DNA of 64,000 nt from Candidatus Binataceae bacterium (GTDB taxonomy: Bacteria > Desulfobacterota > Binatia > Binatales > Binataceae). The notes beneath the pieces are model-generated. The model ran no database searches. It was not told the DNA's origin and was given only the letters and a program-made list of their open reading frames with translations. Positions 9,281 to 56,686 of the stretch are shown here, in pieces (the stretch's first letter is position 1; every line of letters begins with the position of its first letter). The position numbers and the translations under genes were made by a program. The stretch covers positions 64,370 to 128,369 of the forward strand of contig DATJXN010000089.1 of the NCBI GenBank assembly GCA_035500095.1, in the 5' to 3' direction.

Positions 9281-10135
9281 ATGGCTGACGACCGTTCACA
9301 TGGATCATTGACGCTCGAACACGAGGCGCCCAACACGCTCGAGGGCTGGAGCGTGCTGCATCAGGTGTTCCGCCTGCGGCGCGGCGCGCTCGGCGCGCTC
9401 GACGCCGGACGGCGCGAACGAATTCTGCGCCAGGCGGCCGCCGCGATCTCCGCGATGGAGCGGCGCGAAGATGGCGAAAGCGCAGTCTTTTCGGTCCTGG
9501 GACATAAGGGCGATCTGCTCGCGATCCATTTCCGCCGGACGTTCGACGACCTGGAGCGCGCGCAGGCGACGCTTGCGGCGCTGGAGCTCAGCGCGTTTCT
9601 CGAACAATCCGGATCCTATGTCTCGATGGTTGAGATCGGGCTCTACGAGGCCACAGTCGCCTTGAACGCGCGGCTCGCCGGCGAAGGCCTGCGTCCGCAT
9701 TCGCCGGAATGGAAGCGGGCGGTCGACGAAGAGATGGCCGCACAGCGCGCGAAGATGGCCTCGCGCCTATGGCCTAAAATTCCCGAACGCCGCTATCTCT
9801 GTTTTTATCCGATGAACAAGCGGCGCGCCGGAGCCGACAACTGGTACCAGTTGCCGATCGACGAGCGCCGCCGCCTGATGCATGAGCACGGAATGATCGG
9901 CAGACGCTATGCAGGCCAAGTCACGCAGATAATCTCCGGGTCGGTCGGCTTCGACGACTGGGAATGGGGAGTCGATCTCTTCGCGGACGATCCACTGGTG
10001 TTCAAGAAACTGGTCTACGAGATGCGCTTCGATGAATCGAGCGCGCGCTATGCCGAGTTCGGCCCGTTCATCGTCTCGATCCGGCTGGACGCCGACGATC
10101 TGCAGCGTGCAACTTTCGGCCATACCTCAGCCTGA
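9281..10135 (+). CDS. hemQ: coproheme decarboxylase (HemQ/ChdC), chlorite-dismutase family
   Basis: A 284-residue protein of the chlorite-dismutase-like haem family. HemQ decarboxylates iron-coproporphyrin III to haem b with peroxide in the coproporphyrin-dependent pathway. Diagnostic stretches: YPMNKRR at ~176-182, containing the Tyr that becomes the decarboxylation radical in the family; YQLPIDERRRLMHEHG with the proximal His around 201-203; GRRYAGQVTQIISGS; and DDWEWGVDLFADDP. The ATG at 9281 gives the expected N-terminus, and the longer open frame upstream overlaps cobB. It sits 70 bases after cobB. True chlorite dismutases have a different active-site neighbourhood, so HemQ is preferred. 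Confidence 0.88.
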   Translation: MADDRSHGSLTLEHEAPNTLEGWSVLHQVFRLRRGALGALDAGRRERILRQAAAAISAMERREDGESAVFSVLGHKGDLLAIHFRRTFDDLERAQATLAALELSAFLEQSGSYVSMVEIGLYEATVALNARLAGEGLRPHSPEWKRAVDEEMAAQRAKMASRLWPKIPERRYLCFYPMNKRRAGADNWYQLPIDERRRLMHEHGMIGRRYAGQVTQIISGSVGFDDWEWGVDLFADDPLVFKKLVYEMRFDESSARYAEFGPFIVSIRLDADDLQRATFGHTSA

Positions 10136-10745: not shown

Positions 10746-11081
10746 TCAGTTGCGGAATCTGTCGGCCATGCGCCGCAGGATCCCGGACCGTCCGCCATCG
10801 CCAGGTTCATCGGCGGCGGCGCCCGCCGATGCGCTCCCGGCCGATGCTTCGGCGCCCGGTTTCAAGCGGGCGAAAATCTCTTCGACCTCGCCATCGGTCG
10901 GAAAACGGCCGGCCTCCGCCTTGGAAAAAATCACCTGGCCATCCATCACGACGTCGAACTGGCCGGTTTTGCCGGGCCTGACTTCGGCCTCTTCGCCGAA
11001 GCGCTTATGGAGCGATGCGGCCAGACTGACCGCGCGTGGCTTGTAGCCTCAAGCCGAACAATAGAGAATCACTGTCGCCAT
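10746..11081 (-). CDS. SelW/Rdx-family selenoprotein with in-frame TGA (selenocysteine)
   Basis: A 111-residue thioredoxin-like redox protein, provided the TGA at 11051-11049 is read as selenocysteine. Reading from ATG 11081 gives MATVILYCSA-U-GYKPRA, the SelW CxxU redox motif with Cys8 and Sec11. It continues seamlessly into family sequence: ASLHKRFGEEAEVRPGKTGQ, FDVVMDGQVIFSKAEAGRFP, then GEVEEIFARLKP. Homology-like sequence on both sides of the TGA and a good ribosome-binding site (AGGAG, spacing ~9) argue that the stop is read through. Without Sec decoding only the last ~67 residues would be called. A Gly/Ala-rich tail ends the protein. It lies 32 bases downstream of arginine decarboxylase, probably in one operon. 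The sel genes are not in this window. Confidence 0.82.
11017..11033 (-). promoter_or_regulatory. candidate bacterial SECIS hairpin downstream of the Sec TGA
   Basis: Within the coding sequence, 15 nt after the TGA, the mRNA can fold GCGGUCA-GUC-UGGCCGC: seven base pairs including one U-G wobble, closed by a GUC loop. Size, distance from the UGA and a GU in the apical loop match what is known of the E. coli fdhF SECIS mini-helix bound by SelB, whose core also contains CAG-GUCUG-like sequence. This is a by-eye fold, not a calculated one. Confidence 0.6.
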
Positions 11082-11113
11082 TCGAAAGTCTCCTGCCTCA
11101 GTTCACCATCGAC

Positions 11114-11677
11114 TCACTTGCTCTCGGGAAAATCGACGAACACTGCCGCCGCCACCACCGAGGTCCACAAGCCGTCGCGGTCGCCGATCGCCGATTGCGT
11201 GGCGTTGCGCGTGGTCACGATTTTGTCCGAGACGCGCCAGACGTCCTTGCGCTCGTCGTAGCTCGAGTTGGGATCGAATTCGACACCCAGGATCGTCGCC
11301 AGCATCATCGCCGCCAGATCTTCGGCGTAGTCGCCGGCCTTCTGGTCGGTCTCGCCGAAGCTGTGATGCTCCGAGAGATAGCCGTACTGGCCGGGATTGG
11401 CCGGAATTGCCACGCCCACCGAGGCGGCGATGAGGCGATGGGGCTCGTCGGTTGCGTTGTCGCTCATCACGGCAAAAACGATCTGGCCGGGCTTGAGATA
11501 CTTGAGTCCCTCCTGCGGCGTGATCAGTTTGCAGTAGGGCGGAAAGATCGATTGGACGCGGACCAGGTTGTACTCGGCGATGTTGGCCGCGCGCAGGGCC
11601 ATCTCGAACGAGTTGAGCTTCTCGCGATGCTTGCCGACCCCTTTGGTCAGGAAAACTCCCTTGGGAAAAGGCCCCAT
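11114..11677 (-). CDS. pdaD: pyruvoyl-dependent arginine decarboxylase
   Basis: A 187-residue proenzyme of the pyruvoyl-dependent arginine decarboxylase family, which makes agmatine for polyamine synthesis. Family features: FLTKGVGKHREKLNSFEMAL at the N-terminus, then NLVRVQSIFPPYCKLI, where self-cleavage before Ser43 would create the pyruvoyl group (here Gln-Ser rather than Ser-Ser). Later come GQIVFAVMSDNATDEP and HHSFGETDQKAGDYAEDLAA. Length is normal. It lies 93 bases downstream of methylmalonyl-CoA mutase on the same strand and 32 bases upstream of the SelW-like gene. Known forms act as a trimer of alpha-beta dimers in the cytoplasm. Confidence 0.88.
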   Translation of the reverse strand: MGPFPKGVFLTKGVGKHREKLNSFEMALRAANIAEYNLVRVQSIFPPYCKLITPQEGLKYLKPGQIVFAVMSDNATDEPHRLIAASVGVAIPANPGQYGYLSEHHSFGETDQKAGDYAEDLAAMMLATILGVEFDPNSSYDERKDVWRVSDKIVTTRNATQSAIGDRDGLWTSVVAAAVFVDFPESK

Positions 11678-51970: not shown

Positions 51971-54283
51971 ATGGAAACCGCCGAAGCCATCGTTCGCCGC
52001 GCAATCTTCTGCGAGGGCGTCGTGCAGGGTGTCGGCTTCCGTCCATTCGTGTATAGGCTCGCCGCCGAACTCGAACTTAGTGGTTGGGTCTCGAACAGCG
52101 GCCGCGGCGTGGAAATCGAGGCCGAGGGAACGCCGTGGCGTCTCGACGAATTTCTCCGCCGCATCCGGGAGGACTATCCAGCGGGCGCGGCGCTCAGGCG
52201 CGTCGAAGTCCGCGCGCAGGCGCCGCGCAACGAACGCGGGTTTGCGATCGTTCAAAGTTCGGCCGGCGTCGACCCGAGGCCTGCGCTGCCGGTCGACCTT
52301 GCGATGTGCGCCGCGTGTCTCGCGGATATCCGCAACCCGCATTCGCAGCGCTACCGGTATCCGTTCACCACTTGCAGCAGCTGCGGCCCACGCCACTCGC
52401 TGGTCGTCGGCCTGCCGTACGATCGCGCGCGCACCACGATGTGCCGTTTCACGATGTGCCCGGACTGCGCGCGCGAGTACCACGATGAGCGCGACCGGCG
52501 TTTTCACGCCGAGACCATCGCGTGCCCTGCGTGCGGACCAAAGCTGAGCCTGATCGGCGCCGCGGGACGGGCGCTCGCGAGAGAGGATGCGGCGCTGCGG
52601 CTTGCCGCCCAAATGGTGTGCGACGGTCAGATCGTCGCGCTCAAAGGCATCGGCGGTTTTCAGCTGATCGTCGATGCACTCGATCCCGCCGCAGTTGCGC
52701 GATTGCGCCAGCGCAAGCACCGACCCGACAAGCCGCTCGCAGTGATGTTTTCGTCGGTTGAAGCGATGCGCGCACACTGCGCGTTGTCTAATGAAGACAT
52801 GCGTGCTCTCGTGTCAGCGGCCGCACCGATAGTTCTGCTGCGGAAATCTGACCGTGAAATCGGCCCGAGGATCGCGGAGGGCGTGGCGCCGCGCAATCCG
52901 ATGCTCGGCGCGATGCTCCCGTACACGCCGCTGCATGCGCTGCTACTCGAGGCGGTCCGGCGACCGGTCGTGTGCACGAGCGGGAACCTCTCCGAGGAGC
53001 CGATATGCACGGATACCGCCGAAGCGCTCACGCGGCTCGGCAATGTAGCGGACGCGTTCCTGACTCACAACCGGCCCGTCGCGCGCCCTCTCGACGATTC
53101 CGTGGTTCGCGTTGGCGCGCGGAGCGCGCGCACGATTCGGCGCGCGCGCGGCTACACGCCGGTCACCATCGACATTGGCGTTGGTCCGGCGGTGCTGGCG
53201 CTCGGCGGCCACGTGAAAAATACGATCGCGCTCGCGTTGGACCGCGAGGCGATCCTCAGTCAGCATATCGGCGACCTCGACAGCGCCGCTGCGCGCAATT
53301 CTTTCCAGCGTGCGATCGATGACCTGACATCGTTCTTCCGATGCAAACCGGAGTTGCTCGCGTGCGATCTGCATCCCGATTACGCATCGACGATCGCCGC
53401 CGAGCGGCTGACCGAGCGACTCGGCACGCCGCTCATCCGCGTGCAGCATCATCACGCACACGTCGCGGCGTGCATAGCCGAGCATCGGCTCGAAGGGCCT
53501 GTCCTCGGCTTCGCTTGGGACGGCACGGGTTATGGAACTGACGGAACTGTCTGGGGCGGCGAGGCGCTGGTCGTTCGCAGCGGAGCGTTCGAGCGCGTCG
53601 CGACCCTGCGGCAGTTCGCGCTTCCCGGCGGCGAGCGTGCGATCCGCGAGCCACGCCGCCAGGCGCTCGCCCTTCTTCGTGCCGCGGGCATAGCGCCGCA
53701 TCGCTATCTCGGGCATTTGTTCGCGGGTGCCGAGATGGATCGGGTCGCAGGAATGGTTGACTCGCGCATCAACGCGCCGCTCACGTCGAGTATTGGCCGC
53801 CTTTTCGACGCAGTTGCAGCGCTCTGCGGATTTGGCGGCATCGCCAGCTTCGACGGGCAGGCCGCGATGGAACTCGAGCACGCGCTCGACAGTGATGCAG
53901 AGCAGTGCGGCGAATATTCGATCGGACTCGTCGGCGAAGGGCCGATAGTCGGGGACTGGACGCCCATGATCGACGCGCTGCTGGAAGATCTGCGCCAGGA
54001 TGTTCCGATCGCACGCATCGCCGCGCGCTTTCATAACTCGCTCGCTGCGTTTGCCGTCAACGTCGCCAAGCGCGTCCAAATCGAGCGCGTCGTGCTTGGC
54101 GGCGGATGCTTTCAGAACGAATATTTGCTGAGCCGCACTGCGGCGCGACTCGAAGGAGCTGGACTCGAAGTCCATTTTCCGCGAAACGTGCCGCCCAACG
54201 ACGGCGGAATCGCGCTCGGGCAGGCGTTCATCGCGCGGCAGATGGCAAGGGAGGCCGGACATGTGCCTGGGAATCCCCGGTAA
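51971..54283 (+). CDS. hypF: carbamoyltransferase HypF
   Basis: A 770-residue enzyme that makes the thiocarbamate on HypE for the hydrogenase cyanide ligands. Domains in order: acylphosphatase (~10-95, FCEGVVQGVGFRPFVYRLAA); two zinc-finger-like Cys sets (CAACLADIRNPHSQ, TCSSCGPRHS, CPDCAREYHDERD and CPACGPK); YrdC-like nucleotidyl transfer domain (~190-370, QIVALKGIGGFQLIVDALDP and KHRPDKPLAVMFSSVEAM); and Kae1-like domain (HHHAHVAACIAEH, FAWDGTGYGTDGTVWGGEAL and VVLGGGCFQNEYLLSRTAAR). ATG 51971 is chosen because upstream sequence overlaps hypA. It overlaps hypC by 23 bases. Confidence 0.94.
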   Translation: METAEAIVRRAIFCEGVVQGVGFRPFVYRLAAELELSGWVSNSGRGVEIEAEGTPWRLDEFLRRIREDYPAGAALRRVEVRAQAPRNERGFAIVQSSAGVDPRPALPVDLAMCAACLADIRNPHSQRYRYPFTTCSSCGPRHSLVVGLPYDRARTTMCRFTMCPDCAREYHDERDRRFHAETIACPACGPKLSLIGAAGRALAREDAALRLAAQMVCDGQIVALKGIGGFQLIVDALDPAAVARLRQRKHRPDKPLAVMFSSVEAMRAHCALSNEDMRALVSAAAPIVLLRKSDREIGPRIAEGVAPRNPMLGAMLPYTPLHALLLEAVRRPVVCTSGNLSEEPICTDTAEALTRLGNVADAFLTHNRPVARPLDDSVVRVGARSARTIRRARGYTPVTIDIGVGPAVLALGGHVKNTIALALDREAILSQHIGDLDSAAARNSFQRAIDDLTSFFRCKPELLACDLHPDYASTIAAERLTERLGTPLIRVQHHHAHVAACIAEHRLEGPVLGFAWDGTGYGTDGTVWGGEALVVRSGAFERVATLRQFALPGGERAIREPRRQALALLRAAGIAPHRYLGHLFAGAEMDRVAGMVDSRINAPLTSSIGRLFDAVAALCGFGGIASFDGQAAMELEHALDSDAEQCGEYSIGLVGEGPIVGDWTPMIDALLEDLRQDVPIARIAARFHNSLAAFAVNVAKRVQIERVVLGGGCFQNEYLLSRTAARLEGAGLEVHFPRNVPPNDGGIALGQAFIARQMAREAGHVPGNPR

Positions 54284-54509
54284 AGTGCTGAGCATCGAGC
54301 GCGGCGATCTTCCACGCGCGCGAATCGACTTTGGCGGTATCATCAAGGACGCCTGCCTCGCGTTCGTGCCGGAGGCCGCGCCCGGCGACTACGTGATCGT
54401 GCATGCCGGCTTCGCCATCAGCCGCATCGATGAGGCGGAGGCGCGCCGCGTTTTCGAAGAACTTGATCGGATGGAAGAAATCGCCGAATCCAAGGAGCCG
54501 CGCGGGTGA
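54261..54509 (+). CDS. hypC: hydrogenase maturation chaperone HypC
   Basis: An 82-residue HypC/HybG chaperone with the invariant start [16 protein letters not shown], where Cys2 binds the Fe(CN)2CO precursor with Hyp[21 protein letters not shown] is the expected beta-barrel closing motif. The ATG lies inside the end of hypF (23-base overlap), and its stop overlaps the hypD GTG start (GTGA), a clear sign of translational coupling. Confidence 0.93.
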
Positions 54510-55636
54510 AGTACGTTGACGAATATCGCGAGGCGCGCGCCGCGCGGCGTTTCGCGCGCGCCATCGCGCGCGTCACGACACGCCCGTGGCAAATCATGGA
54601 AGTGTGCGGCGGCCAGACCCATGCGATCGTAAGGTTCGGGATCGATCAGATGCTGCCGCGGGAAATTACGCTGATCCACGGTCCCGGATGCCCGGTATGT
54701 GTGACGCCGCTGGAAACCGTGGACAAAGCTATCGCAATCGCGGCGCGCGCCGGCGTGATCTTCTGCTCGTTCGGCGACATGCTGCGCGTGCCTGGGTCGG
54801 AACGCGATCTGCTCGGCGTCAAGGCCGGCGGCGGCGATGTGCGCGTGATCTATTCACCGCTCGACGCGCTCGCGCTGGCAGAGGCAAACCCGGATCGCGA
54901 AGTGGTGTTCTTCGCGGTCGGGTTCGAGACCACTGCGCCCGCGAATGCGATGGCCGTGTACGAGGCAAGGCGCCGCGGGCTCCGCAATTTCCTTGTCCTG
55001 GTCTCGCAGGTGATCGTGCCGCCGGCGATCGCGGCGATTTTGTCAGGACCGGACAGCAGAGTGAACGGACTCCTCGCCGCCGGCCACGTCTGTACCATCA
55101 TGGGGATGGACGAATACGTTCCGATCGCCGAGCGCTACGGCGTGCCGATCGTCGTCACCGGTTTTGAACCTGTGGACGTCCTGCAGGGCGTTTACATGTG
55201 CGTTCGGCAACTCGAACAAGGCTCAGCGCGCGTCGAGAACCAGTACAGCCGTTCGGCGCGGACGGACGGCAATCGGGAGGCGCGCAGGATCATTGGCGAA
55301 GTGTTCGAAGTGGTGCCGCGGAAATGGCGCGGCATCGGCGAAATCGACTCAAGCGGGCTCGGCCTTCGTGCCGAATATGCGGACTTCGATGCCGAACTGC
55401 GATTCGGCGTGGGCACGCTGAGCGCCGAGGAGTCGGCTGAATGCTTGAGCGGGCTCATCCTGCAGGGTTTGAAAAAGCCGCCGGAATGTCCGGCGTTCGG
55501 CACCCGATGCACGCCCGAACGGCCCCTCGGGGCGACCATGGTCTCCTCGGAAGGCGCGTGCGCTGCGTATTTCCGTTATCGGCGAACAGTGATGGCCAGC
55601 GGCCGCGCGGGCGCGCTTAAGACGAGCGTGGTGTGA
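54506..55636 (+). CDS. hypD: hydrogenase maturation protein HypD
   Basis: A 376-residue iron-sulfur scaffold that, with HypC, assembles the Fe(CN)2CO unit. Conserved Cys motifs: [40 protein letters not shown] and the C-terminal 4Fe-4S set [20 protein letters not shown] followed by [31 protein letters not shown] and [14 protein letters not shown] are further family segments. GTG start overlapping hypC. hypE follows after three bases. Confidence 0.94.
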
Positions 55637-55639
55637 ACT

Positions 55640-56686
55640 ATGTCGAGAGATTTCCGATTGAGCTGTCCGCTGCCAAACCAACTTCCAGAGACAATTCAAC
55701 TTGCGCATGGCGGCGGCGGACGCATGATGCGCTCGTTGCTCGAGCGGCTGTTCCTGCCCGCCTTCGCAAATCAGTGGCTCGACGCGCGTCACGACAGTGC
55801 GGTGATGCGGATCGGCGCGGAACGAATTGCATTCACCACCGACACCTATGTCGTAAGCCCGCTGTTTTTTCCCGGCGGCGACATCGGCAAGCTTGCGGTC
55901 TTCGGAACGGTCAACGACCTCGCGATGGCGGGAGCGCGTCCGCTCTATCTTAGCGCCGGCTTCATTCTCGAGGAGGGCCTGCCGCTAGCTATGCTCGAAA
56001 TTATCGTCGCGTCGATGCGCGAGGCGGCGGCGGCGGCAGGCGTCGAATTGGTAACGGGCGACACCAAGGTCGTCGATCGCGGCAAGGGCGACGCGGTCTT
56101 CATCAACACCGCCGGCATCGGCGCGGCCGCGGACGTCGAGATCTCGCCGCGCCGCGTGCAGCCCGGCGACGTAATCATCCTGAGCGGCGACGTCGGCCGG
56201 CACGGGATTGCGATCATGTCGGTGCGCAAGGGGCTGAGCTTCGAAACCGCGCTGGAAAGCGACTGCGCGCCCTTGTGGCAACCCGTCTCCGCCCTGCTGC
56301 AGAAAGGCGTCGACGTTCACTGCATGCGCGATCTGACGCGCGGCGGTCTCGCCTCTGCGCTCAACGAGATCGCGTTAGACGCGGGAGTCGCGATCGCGAT
56401 CGATGAAAGTGCGGTTGCGGTGTGCGAACCGGTGGCGGCAGCGTGCGAACTTCTCGGGCTCGACCCGCTGTACGTGGCGAACGAAGGGCGGTTCGTGGCT
56501 TTTGTCACGGCGGAGCATGCCGACCGCGCGCTCGACGTTCTGAGCGGATGCACCGTGAGCGCGCAGCCGCGCGTCATCGGCACAGTCGGCGCTCGCGGAG
56601 ACGCGATCGTCGAGGCGCTGGGCGCGCTCGGCAACCCCAGGATTCTCGACCTGCTTTCAGGCGAGCAACTGCCGCGAATTTGCTGA
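55640..56686 (+). CDS. hypE: hydrogenase maturation protein HypE
   Basis: A 348-residue PurM/ThiL-like ATPase that dehydrates the HypF-made thiocarbamate to thiocyanate for cyanide delivery. N-terminal ETIQLAHGGGGRMMRSLLER, ATP-binding FGTVNDLAMAGARPLYLSAG and VTGDTKVVDRGKGDAVFINT, and MRDLTRGGLASALNEIALDA are typical. It ends PRIC, the invariant C-terminal Cys that carries the modification. Last gene of the hyd-hyp operon; a short hairpin follows 24 bases after its stop. Confidence 0.94.
   Translation: MSRDFRLSCPLPNQLPETIQLAHGGGGRMMRSLLERLFLPAFANQWLDARHDSAVMRIGAERIAFTTDTYVVSPLFFPGGDIGKLAVFGTVNDLAMAGARPLYLSAGFILEEGLPLAMLEIIVASMREAAAAAGVELVTGDTKVVDRGKGDAVFINTAGIGAAADVEISPRRVQPGDVIILSGDVGRHGIAIMSVRKGLSFETALESDCAPLWQPVSALLQKGVDVHCMRDLTRGGLASALNEIALDAGVAIAIDESAVAVCEPVAAACELLGLDPLYVANEGRFVAFVTAEHADRALDVLSGCTVSAQPRVIGTVGARGDAIVEALGALGNPRILDLLSGEQLPRIC

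Follow-up and report, generated by a model that had tools for sequence, protein, structure and literature searches.

The selW locus and its neighborhood

In the window, by which we mean the whole 64,000-nt stretch of Binataceae DNA that was analyzed, a gene for a selenoprotein W-like (SelW-like) protein of the Rdx family follows a gene for pyruvoyl-dependent arginine decarboxylase (pdaD) on the same strand. The locus has the following features:

11114..11677, minus strand: pdaD, pyruvoyl-dependent arginine decarboxylase (Pfam PvlArgDC, 196 bits)
11090..11093, minus strand: Shine-Dalgarno-like GGAG ahead of the ATG (read from the sequence)
10746..11081, minus strand: predicted selW-like (Rdx) selenoprotein gene, 111 codons plus a TGA stop (TGA=U translation, Pfam Rdx, TIGR02174, relatives)
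11049..11051, minus strand: predicted Sec-encoding TGA, codon 11, the final position of CxxU (same codon in 30/30 Binataceae loci read)
11017..11033, minus strand: predicted bSECIS hairpin, 17 nt, with 7 bp and a GUC loop (fold, kept pairs, synonymous constraint)
10749..10787, minus strand: C-terminal tail of SelW, a short helix (GILRRMADRFRN) after a low-complexity linker (alignment; AlphaFold helix 99-107, low confidence)

Read from 11081 to 10746 with TGA translated as U, the gene yields 111 residues with U at position 11; the product begins MATVILYCSAUGYKPRAVSLAASLHKRFGEEAEVRPGKTGQFDVVMDGQVIFSKAEAGRFPTDGEVEEIFARLKPG, ends FRN, and carries the motif C8-S-A-U11, which is invariant among relatives. 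The preliminary description had proposed a good ribosome-binding site before the upstream ATG, and GGAG indeed sits about 8 nt 5' of the ATG at 11081. Its expectation that a standard caller would keep only a 67-aa fragment was also borne out, as translation table 11 leaves nothing at this locus except a 67-aa ORF with a GTG start. The truncation of selW by standard gene finders is now explained. Some Binataceae SelW proteins share the variable linker and short C-terminal helix (10749-10851), whereas others lack them and end near residue 75-80.

The gap between pdaD and selW is 32 nt. In 27 of 30 Binataceae loci, pdaD is the immediate upstream neighbor of selW, in the same orientation. This adjacency suggests an operon or a functional link. 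A more specific proposal, to which we give low odds, is that SelW works in a conserved unit with PdaD, for example by protecting or tuning agmatine/polyamine synthesis; if true, the pdaD unit would give bacterial SelW a defined physiological partner. On the other side of selW, a convergent chlorite dismutase-family gene (window 9302-10135) lies downstream, as it does in many Binataceae loci.

Homology and conservation across the in-frame TGA

The product scores above the cut-offs of both Pfam Rdx (PF10262; 62.7 bits against 22.6, residues 5-69) and NCBIfam TIGR02174 CXXU_selWTH (55.4 bits against 34.2). Because the profile alignments start at residue 5, Rdx homology crosses the TGA. The top-scoring NCBIfam match is NF041051 SelTWH_Campy at 78.1 bits, which is under the equivalog cut-off of 88 and thus places the product outside that subfamily. 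Among PDB sequences the best match is MIEN1 (1.4e-10), and other solved relatives include SAV_2001, mouse SelW and further SelW-related proteins.

In an AlphaFold model the core has pLDDT values of 84-89 and the tail is poorly modeled; a strand at residues 3-7 precedes CxxU. Foldseek searches with this model returned SelW-family structures as top matches (2obk, 2fa8 and 3dex, then MIEN1 and mouse SelW), with TM (target) scores of 0.78-0.86 and rmsd values of 1.1-1.6 for the bacterial SelW-family structures. The predicted structure is the thioredoxin-like SelW fold.

Across Binataceae, selW was detected in 37 of 41 genomes and has an in-frame TGA in all 37. In the 30 loci that were read, the TGA is always codon 11 and is flanked by invariant residues on either side. 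One might suppose that a Cys-type SelW has been broken here by a chance TGA, through pseudogenization or sequencing error, since TGA is one base away from TGC and TGT and the window is drawn from a fragmented assembly. However, the independent relatives, which have TGA at the same codon (30/30) and a strongly conserved protein sequence before and after it, refute this reading, and no Cys-form SelW was found within Binataceae (37 homologues, 30 loci read); we regard such an error as extremely improbable. Equally remote is the notion that only the short downstream ORF is translated and that the sequence before the TGA is non-coding. The table 11 ORF is what speaks for it, but the product of that ORF would have neither the active site nor the first strand, and conservation 5' of the TGA, comprising the start codon, the YC..U motif, I5, Y7 and C8, refutes it.

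The preliminary description had recognized a CxxU motif at the TGA with family-like sequence on both sides, and had proposed aligning the product to SelW/Rdx families and looking at relatives; the profile matches and the conserved UGA in Binataceae uphold that recognition. In other families of the class, SelW matches with a TGA (counted by presence) and matches free of stops both occur. Homology on both flanks of the TGA and conservation among relatives go far beyond chance.

A constrained hairpin downstream of the UGA

The hairpin GCGGUCA-GUC-UGGCCGC starts 15 nt past the TGA, with its loop 22 nt from the TGA. Its distance from the TGA, length and GU loop are those given in the preliminary description; it spans 11033-11017 and folds with 7 bp at -9.3 kcal/mol (z -3.4). 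The whole 55-nt stretch folds no better than shuffles (z -0.65), and Rfam at the gathering threshold gave no match in the window. Rules for bacterial SECIS elements have been published (PMC13188914), and the selW hairpin fits them, with a 3-nt loop starting with GU and the stem length, distance and folding energy given above. Within the window, a sequence that meets the same rules comes after 8.4% of TGA triplets, so the hairpin alone is weak evidence.

In an alignment of relatives, the hairpin pairs are retained in 98.9% of cells. There is one double change, equaled by 84 of 500 shuffles; compensatory change is minimal because the nearly invariant helix hardly varies. Since covariation was too sparse, synonymous constraint was used as the measure. 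Over 30 sequences, the excess of synonymous identity over expectation is 0.60 in the hairpin codons (+6 to +10), compared with 0.05 before the TGA, -0.002 in codons +1 to +5 and 0.07 in codons +13 to +58, and when five codons were drawn at random 20,000 times, no draw reached the hairpin value. The serine at +8 is encoded by AGT in 28 of 28 cases, whereas AGT accounts for 3 of 103 serine codons elsewhere in selW. This strong synonymous constraint supports the presence of a bacterial SECIS, that is, an RNA element that would be embedded in the coding sequence.

Selenocysteine machinery and comparison with known systems

Family searches located selA, selB, selC and selD in the genome. selA is on the same contig as selW, about 20 kb away, and selB includes the C-terminal winged-helix domains, which bind SECIS RNA. 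selC encodes a tRNA-Sec with anticodon UCA. selD adjoins selB and has one in-frame TGA (context KAAGUAGK) at what we take, by eye against Cys17 of the E. coli protein, to be the expected catalytic position. selB, selD and selC are on contigs other than that of selW in this 156-contig assembly; given the conservation in relatives, contig misassignment of the machinery is unimportant. The four genes, for which the preliminary description had proposed a search, and the UGA conserved in the family support its proposal that this organism inserts selenocysteine.

A scan of the window beyond its main ORFs for further genes read through a TGA gave no second selenoprotein that was convincing by eye. 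The match of a formate dehydrogenase alpha subunit (G000:C131:9403-11430) has no in-frame TGA, so this enzyme is probably not a selenoprotein here. Separately, possible hydrogenase maturation genes lie at window positions 54261-56686, where the ORF at 54261 looks like HypC; the ORF at 55640-56686 may be HypE, since a weak match to the SelD profile (C89:120147-120827) overlaps it.

Close relatives with the whole Sec trait and two genomes of one genus that lost it (G027 and G032, 97% and 96% complete) provide a natural experiment. Neither of the two has selA, and neither has selB above the cut-off. The tRNA-Sec, which scores 72-74 bits in four other searched genomes of their genus, was not found in either. 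Compared with G016, both have a single clean deletion of about 350 nt right after pdaD, which removes selW. The in-frame TGA of selD is present in 39 of 41 Binataceae genomes; G027 and G032 keep selD, with TGG (Trp) and TGC (Cys), respectively, as the Sec codon (loci L102, G027:C4:113500-114900, and L103, G032:C46:22400-23800). The SECIS-like GGTCCGGCGGACC hairpin 3' of that codon is still intact in both. The Trp form of SelD in G027 may be inactive. As the machinery, selW and the selD UGA have all been lost, in-frame UGAs disappear along with the machinery.

Within the family, the presence and absence of selA and selW are associated (Fisher p 0.02), a value that overstates independence because both trait-less genomes belong to one genus and probably reflect a single loss event. 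Two genomes have selA and no selW match (G004 and G013) and one has selW and no selA match (G012); these mismatches can be accounted for by gene loss or by gaps in the assemblies.

The Trp codon at the homologous position of selD in G027 could also be taken as a sign that UGA is read in some other way, by general recoding to Trp or Gly or by near-cognate readthrough. However, TGA serves as the normal stop of selW itself and of other genes in the window, the complete Sec machinery vanishes jointly with selW and the selD UGA, and homologues such as 2ljk and 3dex have Cys at the position equivalent to U11. Thus, we consider it highly implausible that UGA is read in any of these ways.

Taken together, computation establishes the gene, its family, the machinery, the conservation and the constrained hairpin. 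The locus is almost certainly a selW-like (Rdx) selenoprotein gene, in which the UGA at codon 11 would be read as selenocysteine by standard bacterial insertion. SelA would make Sec-tRNA-Sec from the selenophosphate supplied by SelD, SelB would bring it to the ribosome, and binding of SelB to the mRNA hairpin right after the UGA would lead to codon 11 being read as selenocysteine. We infer the actual insertion, the binding by SelB and the redox activity of the product. Most likely, SelW acts as a small selenol/thiol oxidoreductase whose active site is the C8-U11 pair, by way of either a selenenylsulfide between C8 and U11 or a mixed adduct formed with a low-molecular-weight thiol. The function of bacterial SelW-like proteins has been described as unclear, with a redox role suggested by CXXU (PMC1088965).

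SelW-like proteins are among the known bacterial selenoprotein families (PMC1088965, PMC1794560, PMC13188914), with members reported from the Sargasso Sea (PMC1088965) and from genera such as Geobacter, Desulfotalea and Symbiobacterium (PMC1794560). The Binataceae selW adds a member to this established family. More broadly, a family of the uncultured phylum Binatota very probably uses selenocysteine. No report of selenoproteins in Binatota was found in the literature searched (subscription journals and preprints were outside the search), and both the Sec trait in this phylum and the conserved pdaD-selW linkage may be unreported.

In selD of the same genomes, as in selW, a short GC-rich hairpin comes after the UGA, and its 3-nt loop begins with G (GGUCC-GGC-GGACC in selD); the protein and the stem sequence differ, and the selD loop is 17 rather than 22 nt from the UGA. 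With the known bacterial SelW-like selenoproteins (PF10262; TIGR02174), the Binataceae protein shares CxxU, the predicted thioredoxin-like fold, and a UGA with a putative bSECIS within the coding region; it differs in its host phylum, Binatota, and in the extra C-terminal linker and short helix of some members. The Rdx fold and a CxxU/CxxC redox motif are also common to mammalian selenoprotein W (2npb) and MIEN1/C17orf37 (2ljk). Unlike the bacterial element, the eukaryotic SECIS sits in the 3' UTR, and MIEN1 has Cys where the Binataceae SelW is predicted to have Sec.
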